A DNA stretch of 44,263 nucleotides from Candidatus Woesearchaeota archaeon. GTDB taxonomy: Archaea > Nanobdellota > Nanobdellia > SCGC-AAA011-G17 > ARS1403. Under the pieces are notes generated by a model. That model was given only the letters and a program-made list of their open reading frames with translations. It was not told the DNA's origin and did not search any database. The DNA lies in contig JAGVZI010000006.1 in assembly GCA_018302705.1 (NCBI GenBank), positions 1 to 44,263 of the forward strand, given 5' to 3'. The position numbers were made by a program, and so were the translations under genes. This document shows, one piece after another, positions 36,390-41,840 of this stretch; the first letter of the stretch is position 1; every line of letters starts with the position of its first letter.

Positions 36390-37742
36390 CTAGAGTAATT
36401 TTTTTAGCAGCTTTTCTGTTATTTTTGGATTTGCCTTCCCCCCGGATAAGCGCATGACTTGGCCCATTAAATAATGCAACGCTTCCTGTTTTCCAGATTT
36501 GTAGTCTTCTACAACTGCTTTGTTGTTTTTAATCGCTTCCTTGCATAATCTTTCTAATTCCCCTTCTGATGCGATCATTCCTAACTTTTGTCTTTCAACA
36601 TGCCCCTTTGGAGAGAATGGTTTTTCTATCAACTTAATCAGAAGATCTTTTGCCGTTGCATCATTAATTTTGTTTTCTTTTAGCAGCGTTAATAATTCGA
36701 TAATGTGCTCGGCTTCAATTTTTATTTCTTTTAATTCCTTTTTGTTGTAATGCAAAACTTTCATCAAATCCCGCCTAAGCCATTTTGCTGCCAGTATCGG
36801 GTCTATTTCTTCAGCTACCTGTTCAAATAATTCTGCCAGTTCTTTTTCTGCTGCCAGTGTCTCAGCATCCTCTGGCTGCAGCTTGTACTGCTTCTTGAAT
36901 CTTGACGCCTTTTCCAAGCTTAGTTCTGGAATCTGCTTTTTTATCTCGTCAAGCATTTGTTTTGTAATTTCTATCTTTGGGAGATCACTTTCAAAGATGT
37001 AACCATAATCTGATTCTCCCTCCTTTATTCTCTGCAGAAATGTGATTCCTTTTTCTGAATCCCAACCGCGGGTTTCTTGCTGCCTGGCAGGCTCTTTTTC
37101 TTGACGAGCAGCTTCGTAGTCCAAAGCGCGCTCAATTTCTTTTAATCCGGTTATATTTTTTATTTCTATTCTTTCTCCTACTGTGGAAATATTTGCATCT
37201 GCTTTCATTGTTGCCTCTGACCTTCTTGTGTAGATGCCTAAGTATTCTAAAATTGTAATTAATTTCCTTAAAAATAGACGGGCTTCATTAGGAGATTTGA
37301 AATCAGGCTCTGTTACTATCTCTATTAATGGGATTCCTGATCTGTTATAGTCGATTAGACAAGTATTCTCTTTGTGTATTAATGCCCCAGGATCTTCTTC
37401 TAAGTGGACTCTTCTGATCCTTATACCATCCAAATTTCCATTTGTTCCAATAGGGATTTCATATTGAGAAATTTGATAATCTTTTGCTAGATCTGGATAG
37501 AAATAATTCTTTCTGGAGAAGAATGTTTCTTTGGAAATCGTGCAGTCTAAAGCCAATGCTACTTTTATTGCTTGTGTGATTGCCTCTTTGTTTAAGACGG
37601 GTTTGCTTCCTGGAAGACCGATACAAGTTGGACAGACTAATGTATTCGGATTTTCGCTTCCTGAAGTTGGACAAGAACAAAAGGTTTTACTGCGGGTTGA
37701 GAGCTGAATATGTGCTTCTATCCCACAGCGAAATTTACTCAT
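36390..37742 (-). CDS. gatB: Asp/Glu-tRNA amidotransferase subunit B
   Basis: GatB is the kinase/tRNA-binding subunit of GatCAB: it activates Asp-tRNA(Asn) or Glu-tRNA(Gln) and receives ammonia from GatA. The 450 residues start GIEAHIQLSTRSKTFCSC, with a zinc motif C-x-C...C-x-x-C (FCSCPTSGSENPNTLVCPTC). Core motifs FSRKNYFYPDLAKDYQISQYE, HLEEDPGAL and DYNRSGIPLIEIVTEPD follow, then a helical and a YqeY-like C-terminal domain. The N-terminus is only a few residues before the core, shorter than usual. Its ATG overlaps the stop of the upstream LAGLIDADG gene by eight bases, so it now depends on that gene's promoter or on long readthrough. Confidence 0.95.
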   Translation of the reverse strand: MSKFRCGIEAHIQLSTRSKTFCSCPTSGSENPNTLVCPTCIGLPGSKPVLNKEAITQAIKVALALDCTISKETFFSRKNYFYPDLAKDYQISQYEIPIGTNGNLDGIRIRRVHLEEDPGALIHKENTCLIDYNRSGIPLIEIVTEPDFKSPNEARLFLRKLITILEYLGIYTRRSEATMKADANISTVGERIEIKNITGLKEIERALDYEAARQEKEPARQQETRGWDSEKGITFLQRIKEGESDYGYIFESDLPKIEITKQMLDEIKKQIPELSLEKASRFKKQYKLQPEDAETLAAEKELAELFEQVAEEIDPILAAKWLRRDLMKVLHYNKKELKEIKIEAEHIIELLTLLKENKINDATAKDLLIKLIEKPFSPKGHVERQKLGMIASEGELERLCKEAIKNNKAVVEDYKSGKQEALHYLMGQVMRLSGGKANPKITEKLLKKLL

Positions 37743-39591
37743 TTAATATTCCCCCAATATCGATATCTAAAGGTCTAGGTAAGTGTTCTTTACCAACTAT
37801 CCAATGCCTTATTGTTGGTTGGGAGACATTCAACTCTCTGGATATTTCACTATAATTCATGCCTTCTTTGAATAATTTTTTTGCCTTTTCAAACTTAATC
37901 TTTTGTTTGTTGAATCTTCTCAACTTTAAATTTGCTTCTTCTACTGTAATTTCTAAGGATTTCTTCTTTTCAGTATTGAATTTATATTTGATTATCTTCG
38001 AGAAATTTATGACATCTAGAATTGATGTGTAAATAGGAAATCTTGAGAAATATGTTATTTTTCCATCTCTTTTTCTTATATTGCTTGGCTTGGGGGTTTC
38101 TACTTCTCCACACCTTATGTTGAATCCTTCTAGTAATCCCTTTATTGAATTTAAAAATTCTATTAGATTGTCTTGGTATCCTCTATCTTTACACATTCCG
38201 AAACTAACAACCGGTATCTCTATCTTATTTTTTAATTTATTTAATTTGACGCTGTGTTTCTGATTTTCACATTCTAATAATCCTTCTAGAAATTCAAGTT
38301 TTATTTCATCATCACCTTTTGTTATCCATAATGGAATTGTGATTCTCTGTAATACTTTCTCTCCTTTAGGTAACCCTTTTCCATATAGAAATCTAACGAA
38401 TGTACTATTTTTAATGTATAATATCCAAGATTTATTTCCTATAATTTTTCTTGGTATTTTGTTTTTTATCTTTGTTATTTCTCCTGTACTCTTATTCTCT
38501 TCAATTCGTATTTTTATCTTTGGGATTTTTTTACTAATATATCTCTTAATTTTTTCTAAATCCTTTTTATTTCCACATAGGAAATAGTAGCTTAGTCTGT
38601 TACTTATTCCTCCATCTCCAAAACCCCATCCTATTATTCTTGACAATGTTTTCTTATCCATTTTATGTAAGCCATACTTATGAATATTTAATAAGGTTCT
38701 AATCCCGTCTGGATAACTTCCTTTTTGCCAGGAATAAAATTCGTGACGATTTATCCCTTTATCGAATGTAGACCACTGTTTTTTGTAACCTTTTAATAAT
38801 TCTAAATAACCTTTTGTGTTTCCTCTGTTATACGTATCTATTATTTTTTTTATTTCTTCCATCCTTAGGTATCTTTCCAGTTCTTTAATTATTTTGCTTG
38901 TTCTTTCTAAATGCTCATTGAACTTTTTTATTCTTAGTTTATACGAGTATCTTGTTTTGTATGTCTGCTCTAAGGGTTTATTTTTTGAGACTAGAATAAG
39001 ATTTTCCATAATTTTTGGTGGTTTCTCCCTCCATTTGCATGGATCTGATTCTACTCTGTTGCATAAATACATTATCCACCTATTCTTTACTTTAAACCCT
39101 TTTTTTATTTCTTTTAGAATTAGGAAATCTCTGACTCTTTTGAGATCATTATTAGACAAATTTCTTAATACTTCTATTATTTTCTCTTTATTATTTATTT
39201 CAAAATGTTTCTTTAATAGTTCATATATTCCTTCTTCATTGGACAATTCTCCCTTTAATTTTGTAAATTTCTCGAAGAAATTATGGTGTCTATTAAATAA
39301 TAAACAAGGAAATCCTTCTTTTTCCCATAATCTTCTTGTTGAAGGAGGAATTTTTAGAAATTTTTCCAGATTCTTTTTTTGTGAATACTTTTCTTTTAAA
39401 GTAAGCCACAGAAAACTTTTGTTAATTCCAAGTTTTCTCTTTTCATCTAATTTTCCATAAAGAGTATACATACTTTGTCTTGTTAATTCATCTGTTTTTT
39501 TCACCCTAATTCTATCTATTAAAATGCTAAAATCCCCATAATCCAATTTTGTTTTTGGATTTTTCAAGATTGTTTCTTTTATCGATTTCAT
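37735..39591 (-). CDS. Free-standing LAGLIDADG protein with C-terminal HTH, inserted in the gat operon
   Basis: 618 residues. The N-terminal 300 are helical, basic and not recognised, with one possible HTH (about 80-95, IPPSTRRLWEKEGFP). The first LAGLIDADG helix is LSRIIGWGFGDGGI (D326 acidic ligand), the second is KLEFLEGLLECE (433-442), about 110 residues apart as in single-chain homing endonucleases. A Trp-ended HTH follows (about 576-598, YSEISRELNVSQPTIRHWI). TATA CATTTATAAATAA (minus, 39611-39623) is 26 bases before the ATG, so it is leaderless. It lies between ASCH and gatB and is visibly more A/T-rich than gatB. It is not an intein: GatB is intact. It may be an active endonuclease or a repurposed regulator. 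Confidence 0.75.
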   Translation of the reverse strand: MKSIKETILKNPKTKLDYGDFSILIDRIRVKKTDELTRQSMYTLYGKLDEKRKLGINKSFLWLTLKEKYSQKKNLEKFLKIPPSTRRLWEKEGFPCLLFNRHHNFFEKFTKLKGELSNEEGIYELLKKHFEINNKEKIIEVLRNLSNNDLKRVRDFLILKEIKKGFKVKNRWIMYLCNRVESDPCKWREKPPKIMENLILVSKNKPLEQTYKTRYSYKLRIKKFNEHLERTSKIIKELERYLRMEEIKKIIDTYNRGNTKGYLELLKGYKKQWSTFDKGINRHEFYSWQKGSYPDGIRTLLNIHKYGLHKMDKKTLSRIIGWGFGDGGISNRLSYYFLCGNKKDLEKIKRYISKKIPKIKIRIEENKSTGEITKIKNKIPRKIIGNKSWILYIKNSTFVRFLYGKGLPKGEKVLQRITIPLWITKGDDEIKLEFLEGLLECENQKHSVKLNKLKNKIEIPVVSFGMCKDRGYQDNLIEFLNSIKGLLEGFNIRCGEVETPKPSNIRKRDGKITYFSRFPIYTSILDVINFSKIIKYKFNTEKKKSLEITVEEANLKLRRFNKQKIKFEKAKKLFKEGMNYSEISRELNVSQPTIRHWIVGKEHLPRPLDIDIGGILNE

Positions 39592-39610: not shown

Positions 39611-39623
39611 TTATTTATAAATG
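39611..39623 (-). promoter_or_regulatory. TATA box of the LAGLIDADG gene (and so of gatB)
   Basis: CATTTATAAATAA on the minus strand is centred 26 bases before the LAGLIDADG ATG at 39591, in the 56-base gap after the ASCH gene. It would drive LAGLIDADG and gatB apart from gatC/gatA. Confidence 0.55.
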
Positions 39624-39647
39624 CTGTGCGGATGTATGGCAGGTATG

Positions 39648-40097
39648 TCAGTTGAAATTCTGTGAATTTATTTTTAACCTCTCAATATTATCTACGCATA
39701 ACCATGATGACATTAATCCAAAACCTTTCTTATTTATTTCAAAAGGGATTATCTTTTCTGGGGTTCTTAAATATATTAGAATGCAATATTTTTTATCTTT
39801 GAATAAACTAAGAAATCTTTGAATCTTTTCTTTTTTAATTCCAACTTCCGCTCCATACTTCTCTAGTATTTCTTTGACTTTGTTCTTGTTTAAATCTGAA
39901 AATTGTAAAACTTTCCCTACTTTAGTCTTTATTGTAACTGGTTCTCCAGAATTTTTAAAATAAATTGCCTCTCCAGGTTTGATTTTATTCCAAGGGGGAT
40001 ACTTGTTTTTATACCATCTCGATTCTATGGTTTTTTCTCTTGTTAGTATTTTTTCTGTTAAATTCCATCCTTTTTTCATTATTGCTAGATGTTCCAT
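39648..40097 (-). CDS. ASCH-domain protein, probable RNA-binding
   Basis: ASCH domains are PUA-like folds thought to bind RNA or act on modified nucleosides. The start is set at ATG 40097 (MEHLAIMKKGW), one base after the gatA stop, rather than track 40121, giving 149 residues. Visible motifs are LTREKTIESRWYKNKYPPWNKIKPGEAIYFKN, the conserved E-x-R plus G-D/E-I-Y-F pattern, and KVGKVLQF. It sits between gatA and the LAGLIDADG gene. A role in tRNA handling with GatCAB is suggested by position only. Confidence 0.8.
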   Translation of the reverse strand: MEHLAIMKKGWNLTEKILTREKTIESRWYKNKYPPWNKIKPGEAIYFKNSGEPVTIKTKVGKVLQFSDLNKNKVKEILEKYGAEVGIKKEKIQRFLSLFKDKKYCILIYLRTPEKIIPFEINKKGFGLMSSWLCVDNIERLKINSQNFN

Positions 40098-40098
40098 G

Positions 40099-41445
40099 TT
40101 AACTTCTTTCAATTTCTTCACCTAGTGTTCTTAATTTTTCTTCTTCTAAATGATTAGCTATTAACATAATACCGACGGGCATTTTTTCTTTGAAGCCAGC
40201 GTTAATTGATAAATGCGGAAGACCTGCGAGATTTGGACCGACTGTTAAAATATCCATCATGTAATTTTCTAATGGACTTAGCTTTTTTATCTCGTCAAAC
40301 TTTGGAGCTATTATCGGCATCGTTGGAGAAATTAAGACATCATACTTCTTAAAGGCTTTTTTATACTCGTTGAGGATTAATGTTCTAACTTTCAATGCCT
40401 TGAGATAATATGCATCTCTGAAGCCAGACATTCTTGCGAAAGTGCCTAAGATTATCCTGCGCTTTGCTTCTTTTGAGAAAAACTTGCTGCGGACCTCAGT
40501 GAAGAATTCATTAAAATTTCCTTTTAATGGAAGTGTTTGGCCGTATCTTAAACCGCAGTATTTTGCAAGATTTGTAGATGCTTCTGATAAAGCTATTAAA
40601 TAATAAGCAGGAATTGAGTATTTTTTTATTAATGGGAGGGAGATGATATCGTAATTTTTTATCTTACTTAGGATTACATCTTTTATTTCTTTATCTACTT
40701 CTAATGACTCTTTGATAACTGCTATTTTTTTTATTTTTTTCTCAGGCAGGATTTTTTGGGGCAATGATGTGGAGTCTTTTTCATCATAGCCGGCTATGTG
40801 ATACAAACCTAGGAATGCTTCTGAAACTTTTTTTCCAATCGTTCCTATTTTATCCAATGAGTTTGCATAATCAATCAAACCATATCTCGAAACTAAGCCA
40901 TAAGTCGGGGTTAAACCTGCTACTCCGCAGAAAGATGCCGGGTTTGCTATACTGCCGCCTGTTGATTCTCCCAATGCTAAATGCGGTTGCGTTGTGAATG
41001 CTGTAAATCCCGCTGCTCCACCAGAACTGCCGCCACACGACCTTGTTATGTCATGTGGGTTCCTTGGAATCTTTTTTGTGTTTACTGAGAATCCTCCAAA
41101 TCCAAATTCGTCTTGAGAAGTTTTTCCTATAATAATCGCCCCTTCTTTTTCTAGCTTATTAATTACTGTTGCTGAAAACGGCGGCCTATATTCTTTTAAT
41201 ATTTCTGAGCCTGCTGCTGACTCTATGCCCCTTACACAAATCCCATCTTTAACTGAAACCGGCAGACCGGCTAGTTTTCCCATTGGATCTTTTTCTATTT
41301 TTTCAGCTTGCTCCAATGCATATGATTTTGAGATTGCTGTGAAATGGTTCGGGGAGTTTTTTGCTTCCTGGAGAATTTTTTCTACTGTTTTTACTACTGA
41401 AACTTCTTTTGATTTTACTTTTTCTAAATATTCTTTAGTGTTCAT
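40099..41445 (-). CDS. gatA: Asp/Glu-tRNA amidotransferase subunit A
   Basis: GatA is the glutaminase of GatCAB, an amidase-signature enzyme. 448 residues. The triad K66 (LPVSVKDGI), S141 (CGGSSGGAAG) and S165 (GESTGGSIANP) has exactly the spacing of known GatA (75 and 24 residues). GTFARMSGFRDAYYLKAL and the C-terminal LPHLSINAGF-x-LPVG-like region complete the fold. It overlaps the upstream membrane-protein gene by four bases (ATGA). Confidence 0.96.
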   Translation of the reverse strand: MNTKEYLEKVKSKEVSVVKTVEKILQEAKNSPNHFTAISKSYALEQAEKIEKDPMGKLAGLPVSVKDGICVRGIESAAGSEILKEYRPPFSATVINKLEKEGAIIIGKTSQDEFGFGGFSVNTKKIPRNPHDITRSCGGSSGGAAGFTAFTTQPHLALGESTGGSIANPASFCGVAGLTPTYGLVSRYGLIDYANSLDKIGTIGKKVSEAFLGLYHIAGYDEKDSTSLPQKILPEKKIKKIAVIKESLEVDKEIKDVILSKIKNYDIISLPLIKKYSIPAYYLIALSEASTNLAKYCGLRYGQTLPLKGNFNEFFTEVRSKFFSKEAKRRIILGTFARMSGFRDAYYLKALKVRTLILNEYKKAFKKYDVLISPTMPIIAPKFDEIKKLSPLENYMMDILTVGPNLAGLPHLSINAGFKEKMPVGIMLIANHLEEEKLRTLGEEIERS

Positions 41446-41840
41446 TTTTTGTATTTGTTAATTAAAAATATTGAGATTATTATTAATAGCGTAGTTGAGA
41501 TTAGATTATAAGGAGACCAGGAATACCAAAATGAATAAGGGGCTAGAGGTTTGTTAATCAAATCTGCTATATAAAAGGGAGTTGCTGTAATTTGATCGAC
41601 TATTAATCCTAATGCTATTGCTAGAAGATAAAAGGAGTATTTTTGATTTTTAATTGGGAAGTAGATTATTAATAAGATTATCCCTAGAAAGGCATGATGG
41701 AATTTGTCTCCCCATATTATACTGCTTGGTGGAATGAACTTAGGAACAGAGTAAATGAGAAATCGTATTATTAGAATCGTAGCTAGAAAGACTATTATGA
41801 ATTTCTTTTTAGATTGTTTTTGGACCTTTGAAGTAACCAT
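41442..41840 (-). CDS. Small multi-pass membrane protein between gatC and gatA
   Basis: 132 residues, about four membrane helices (FIIVFLATILIIRFLIYSV, HHAFLGIILLIIYFPI, FYLLAIALGLIVDQ, LISTTLLIIISIFLI). The pair of histidines before the second helix (GDKFHHAFLG) recalls VanZ-like and related small membrane proteins, but the assignment is weak. It overlaps gatC by 32 bases and gatA by four bases. Its insertion between the two Gat subunit genes is unexpected. Confidence 0.65.
   Translation of the reverse strand: MVTSKVQKQSKKKFIIVFLATILIIRFLIYSVPKFIPPSSIIWGDKFHHAFLGIILLIIYFPIKNQKYSFYLLAIALGLIVDQITATPFYIADLINKPLAPYSFWYSWSPYNLISTTLLIIISIFLINKYKK

Follow-up and report, generated by a model that had tools for sequence, protein, structure and literature searches.

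The window, i.e. the whole stretch of 44,263 nucleotides analysed here (from the genome G000), carries on its minus strand the gene order aspS–gatC–X–gatA–ASCH–ORF–gatB, as the earlier note had read it, and re-reading of the sequence likewise recovered the 618-codon ORF at 37735-39591. All sequence evidence in this study derives from draft genomes, and an archaeal affiliation is deduced from the genes present (RadA, Nre, Hjc and Kae1) and from the promoters. The ORF, gatB and their features are as follows:

36390..37742, minus strand: gatB, intact except for altered first codons (GatB_N 2.9e-90, GatB_Yqey 5.9e-41)
37723..37730, minus strand: CGCTGTGG, encoding Arg-Cys-Gly, gatB codons 5-7; common to the gatB of genome G008, which also bears the endonuclease gene, and not seen in any other gatB start read
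37735..39591, minus strand: free-standing LAGLIDADG homing endonuclease (HEN) gene, 618 codons (ORF, profile match, AF2 model and Foldseek)
37750..37755, minus strand: GGGGGA, SD-like sequence for gatB inside the last codons of the endonuclease ORF, 7 nt before the gatB ATG
37798..37884, minus strand: C-terminal helix-turn-helix (HTH), HTH_23 (PF13384), residues 570-598 (E 1.1e-5)
38266..38292, minus strand: second LAGLIDADG helix, FLEGLLECE, with E442 (alignment and close relative)
38608..38640, minus strand: first LAGLIDADG helix, RIIGWGFGDGG, with D326 (invariant in the 20-sequence alignment)
38692..39591, minus strand: N-terminal ~300 residues, helical, low-confidence model; only in the 618-aa protein and its G008 relative

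The LAGLIDADG region of the protein (residues 314-600), including the C-terminal HTH segment, matches the NCBIfam model of intein-containing RtcB proteins (NF038162, E 4.9e-24), the HTH—already claimed earlier and confirmed by PF13384—being the sole match in a Pfam search. The two helices with acidic residues were also read correctly: D326 lies within IIGWGFGDGG (I319-G328), and the position of E442 is acidic in the close relative, too. The aligned LAGLIDADG relatives, mostly located inside much longer frames, run on into a similar C-terminal segment. The AlphaFold (AF2) model, built from the 20-sequence alignment, has pLDDT values mostly >85 across residues ~310-600, and its Foldseek matches include PI-SceI, the TliVMA intein, I-Tsp061I, the bI3 maturase and I-DmoI (1ef0 2.2e-5, 2dch 4.9e-5, I-DmoI ~1e-3); predicted structure and Foldseek thus confirm the fold on which the family assignment depends. 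Concerning the N-terminus, remarked on before as unrecognised, residues 1-300 belong to no convincing Pfam, NCBIfam or PHROGs family and gave no relative in a search of 371 phylum genomes, the weak matches opened from that search (Elp3, RelA/SpoT and glycosyltransferase frames) being due to chance. Scans of genome-contig and viral-contig collections revealed no relatives of the 618-aa protein. Splicing domains within a host ORF, as expected of an intein, are not what is seen here: the endonuclease ORF has its own start and stop and GatB is intact. A tRNA location is excluded as well, as had been stated.

With regard to the insertion site, about a dozen of the relatives sampled have adjacent gatA and gatB genes, separated by no more than about 40 bases. 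The single full-length relative of the protein among 103 genomes of the order, 58% identical, comes from G008—another genus of the same family—where its gene likewise separates gatA from gatB, the stop overlapping gatB. There is thus a conserved insertion site with HEN-less alleles, i.e. adjacent gatA and gatB, the RCG codons being present in HEN-bearing gatB only. The same slot holds a different LAGLIDADG ORF (387 aa) in G004, an AbrB-PIN-like pair in G005 and a small ASCH-like gene in G002. Between the two genera, the HEN genes of the window and G008 have pN 0.24 and pS 0.69, close to gatA (0.21/0.69), which indicates that both are old and under purifying selection; no near-identical pair with and without the HEN is known among the genomes compared, which also argues for an old insertion. 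The synteny comparison thus turned out opposite to the case in which all relatives carry the gene and empty sites are lacking, since the gene is mostly absent, though under purifying selection. There is thus good support for the suggestion that a homing endonuclease has landed at an operon junction: the fold and the acidic residues, the gatA–gatB relatives without the gene, the same-site relative in G008 and, additionally, a nuclease-like gene, itself unrelated, that fills this slot in the sister species G006. As to the neighbouring gatC–gatA junction, it is interrupted in the window, too, by a membrane-protein-like ORF (41442-41840), and in G006 it additionally holds an alpha/beta hydrolase (L044:3116-3913).

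The ORF stop and the gatB start overlap by eight bases (37735-37742), just as previously described. In both HEN-bearing genomes gatB starts with M-S/G-K/N-F/L-R-C-G-I-E, CGCTGTGG being identical; the other gatB starts read have (K/V/I)-I-G-(I/L)-E or a close variant, with RCG found only in the two HEN-bearing genes. Past the RCG point, the gatB of the window resembles that of G006 and not that of G008. Since RCG is confined to HEN-bearing gatB and the sequence beyond it is G006-like, the insert ends inside the first codons of gatB. The insert thus supplies gatB with a new ATG and, 7 nt before it, an SD-like sequence, the G008 counterpart of GGGGGA being GGAGGA; the altered start would also remove the endonuclease's own target. 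That gatB expression depends on the endonuclease gene is therefore plausible in cis only, by virtue of the SD-like GGGGGA in the last codons of the ORF.

Upstream of the endonuclease gene, the following features were delimited:

39612..39621, minus strand: TATA box, TTTATAAATA, 20 nt from its end to the ATG
39612..39655, minus strand: operator and TATA box, TCAACTGACATACCTGCCATACATCCGCACAG-CA-TTTATAAATA (strict pattern and models R1 and R2)
39648..40121, minus strand: ASCH-domain gene (profile match); the block with the promoter is about 91% identical to that of the sister species G006

The TATA box ends 20 nt upstream of the ATG, a distance that fits leaderless initiation in archaea and agrees with the start proposed earlier. 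The sequence upstream of it, TGACATACCTGCCATACATCCGCACAG, contains an operator of 32 bp directly against the TATA box, consisting of YGRCA repeats about 9 bp apart and then CGCRCAG. Neither this operator nor the change in the opening codons of gatB had been noted earlier. Its strict pattern has one match in the window and none in 100 shuffles; in eight genomes of the family it has 17 matches, the reversed control yielding 0. The gene thus does have its own promoter, as the earlier note maintained, but not a private one, since it carries the operator of a set of repair genes.

This operator bears on the possibility that the 618-aa protein has been domesticated to regulate gatB or its own operon, with the LAGLIDADG fold used as in WhiA. 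The HTH, the presence of WhiA among the Foldseek matches (E 0.04-0.08), the purifying selection and the operon position would all suit such a regulator; we nevertheless consider it improbable, since both acidic motif residues are kept, the gene is absent from most relatives, unrelated nuclease-like ORFs occupy the same slot and the operator is common to unrelated genes. The role of gatB regulator proposed before is likewise unsupported, the gene being absent in nearly all relatives and replaced by nuclease ORFs, and the operator occurring at dozens of loci. Autoregulation by the endonuclease's own HTH was rejected because unrelated genes have the same operator.

Two models of the operator were used: R1, whose training includes the window site, and R2, for which only seven repair-gene promoters, all of them from other genomes, served as the training set. 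At the window site R1 gives E 5.3e-11 (the site being part of the model) and R2 28.8 bits (E 2.7e-7); R2 also finds most nuclease promoters. In the control loci—taken from the gat regions of other families in the order and matched for gene context, not lineage—R1 had 0 matches in 213 kb and R2 0 in 286 kb. The genomes of the family contain 2-21 R1 sites each at E<=0.3. At loci found by protein search, R1 sites lie upstream of radA in G024, G027, G038, G059, G061, G062, G070, G071 and G076, all outside the family of the window; R1 matches outside this family are mostly partial. A local search of 32 radA loci placed every significant match upstream of radA; at other radA loci repeat-plus-TATA variants are visible, which are weaker evidence, their selection having required a GNCA core. 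The radA start of G000 itself lies beyond the contig end, where the operator is unreadable. The operator is also found at Hef-like helicase genes (G073 and G014) and DinD-like genes (G024, G027 and G079), so that repair genes share it. Among the free-standing LAGLIDADG ORFs found in the family by protein similarity, 10 of 17 have an upstream model match and one more a degenerate copy recognised by eye; at least five, mostly in G004, are without the operator.

In total, the operator precedes radA, lhr, nre, hef, dinD-like and cas4-like genes as well as many free-standing LAGLIDADG/HNH endonuclease and TnpB genes, and in nearly every case the gene behind it starts about 20-24 nt past the TATA box, the radA operon having a longer leader than the other operator-bearing genes. 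A scan of 57 downstream proteins yielded LAGLIDADG_3 (27/57), TnpB (4/57) and Bro-N (DinD-like; 2/57), and also Nre, Cas4, NUMOD3 and an ATP-dependent helicase model; names of downstream ORFs without a profile match rest on reading of the translation. NUMOD3/HNH_repeat ORFs and a mini-protein of 46-59 aa follow the operator, too. In G000, sites precede the endonuclease gene of the window, two or three other LAGLIDADG ORFs (C23, C27 and probably C24), a NUMOD3-like fragment, an Lhr-like helicase and probably the mini-protein operon.

One could regard the block as an ordinary strong core-promoter element (BRE/upstream element and TATA box) often carried by mobile genes, in line with its fixed distance from the TATA box and the many mobile nucleases among its genes. 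This we judge rather unlikely, given the low number of R1 sites per family genome, the absence of matches from the control loci, the sites before radA in several families and before lhr, nre, hef and dinD-like genes, and the lineage-specific repeat sequences, as expected for an operator tracking a regulator.

Several further observations concern the operator-bearing genes. At L131:2080-3210, G000:C27, an operator-bearing LAGLIDADG gene lies directly upstream of, and overlaps, an hjc-like (Holliday junction resolvase) gene. In L251, L256, L260, L261, L263 and L156, such LAGLIDADG genes overlap or abut gene starts, the genes concerned being those of ribosomal protein L11, glutaredoxin, PHP, hisS, rfcL and valS-like genes; this suggests that gene-start insertion is common in the family of the window. 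Two others are positioned just downstream of gatB (G038:C11:4544 and G002:C17:51344). The conserved mini-protein (W.EY...NxxW) follows the operator in L243, L255, L265, L309 and G009 (L223), i.e. in several families, with a ~36-aa Cys-containing ORF beside it in G000 and G005; it is possibly a core member of the regulon. In L200, L201 and L204, a gene of ~90 aa is placed directly before radA, between radA and the operator. Finally, GACACCCGCGCCAAGTGCGCGCAG occurs six times in G037, on six contigs and in four of the six within about 1.5 kb of the contig start; it is probably a repeated element.

The slot of the sister species G006 needs separate consideration. An unrelated ORF of 680 aa (L044:5748-7790) lies there between ASCH and gatB behind the same promoter; it has several HTH-like segments, a C-terminus with weak Hjc-like PD-(D/E)XK similarity and no full-length relative within the order. 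Window and G006 have in common the ASCH gene, the promoter and the three codons that open the ORF, after which they diverge abruptly. The dS between the two species is 0.33 for ASCH but 1.26 for gatA and 1.54 for gatB, from which a recent move of the ASCH-promoter block between G000 and G006 follows. Constraint alone as the cause of the ~90% upstream identity was therefore dropped, the synonymous divergence of ASCH showing a recent transfer of the whole block. This exchange, together with the dozens of mobile genes carrying the operator, might be taken to mean that the promoter block spread with mobile genes and was acquired by repair genes secondarily. Such an origin seems very improbable to us: the operator is found at radA in five or more families of the order other than f1, constantly upstream of the small gene preceding radA and with a lineage-specific sequence. 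Being constant in place and lineage-specific in these families, the radA operator points to an ancestral host element.

Based on the above results, the probable explanation is a homing endonuclease at the gatB start that is expressed as part of the host RadA/repair regulon, for which we infer cleavage, target site, regulator and damage induction. A free-standing LAGLIDADG gene would have invaded the start of gatB, whose first codons would have been replaced by the 3' end of the insert with its new ATG and SD-like sequence, so that the essential gatB stays expressed. Transcribed from a leaderless promoter with the operator used in this archaeal order for radA and other DNA-repair genes, the endonuclease would be produced upon activation of recombinational repair, would cut gatB alleles without the insert, and RadA-dependent repair would copy the gene in. 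A homing endonuclease gains only if RadA repairs its break from the HEN-bearing copy, and TnpB likewise depends on recombination; sharing the radA operator may thus time the cut to repair capacity. Since the operator sequence varies by lineage, with repair genes and HENs in step, both appear to follow the host's regulator. We also lean slightly towards the wider proposal of an order-wide SOS-like regulon (~9-bp YGRCA repeats adjoining the TATA box of radA, lhr, nre, hef and dinD-like genes), joined family-wide by selfish nucleases (LAGLIDADG, HNH and TnpB), so that breaks needing recombination would come only when RadA is induced; the damage response of the operator-bearing genes we infer from gene content only.

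The gene shares with the free-standing LAGLIDADG endonucleases I-DmoI and I-Tsp061I, and with the PI-SceI domain, the fold, the two acidic helices and a conserved essential gene as the site. It differs from them in having no intron or intein partner, in its position at a gene start that is rewritten by the insertion, in the ~300-residue extra N-terminus and in the promoter with a repair-gene operator. In contrast to the intein-containing RtcB proteins (NF038162), its best profile match, the protein is free-standing, without splicing domains and without an extein. The bacterial SOS regulon (LexA/RecA) would be analogous in that a single operator likewise governs a recA-family gene together with DinD-like genes, helicases and mobile genes, whereas here direct repeats lie beside an archaeal TATA box and no LexA box was recognised.

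Descriptions of DNA-damage regulons in archaea are scarce; the open literature yielded that of the Sulfolobales, with Orc1-2 as the global regulator and a damage-responsive hexanucleotide promoter motif (PMC9738581). Both are archaeal promoter motifs, but motif and lineage differ, and the damage response is presumed in the present case. The open-access literature yielded neither a description of homing endonucleases as members of such a regulon nor a paper on a damage regulon of such a kind in such a lineage. The operator thus offers a concrete and testable regulon candidate across an archaeal order. For selfish nucleases it suggests a general rule, namely to link cleavage to the repair process by which they spread, and gatB exemplifies the arrival of such a gene within the opening codons of an essential gene whose start it then rebuilds.
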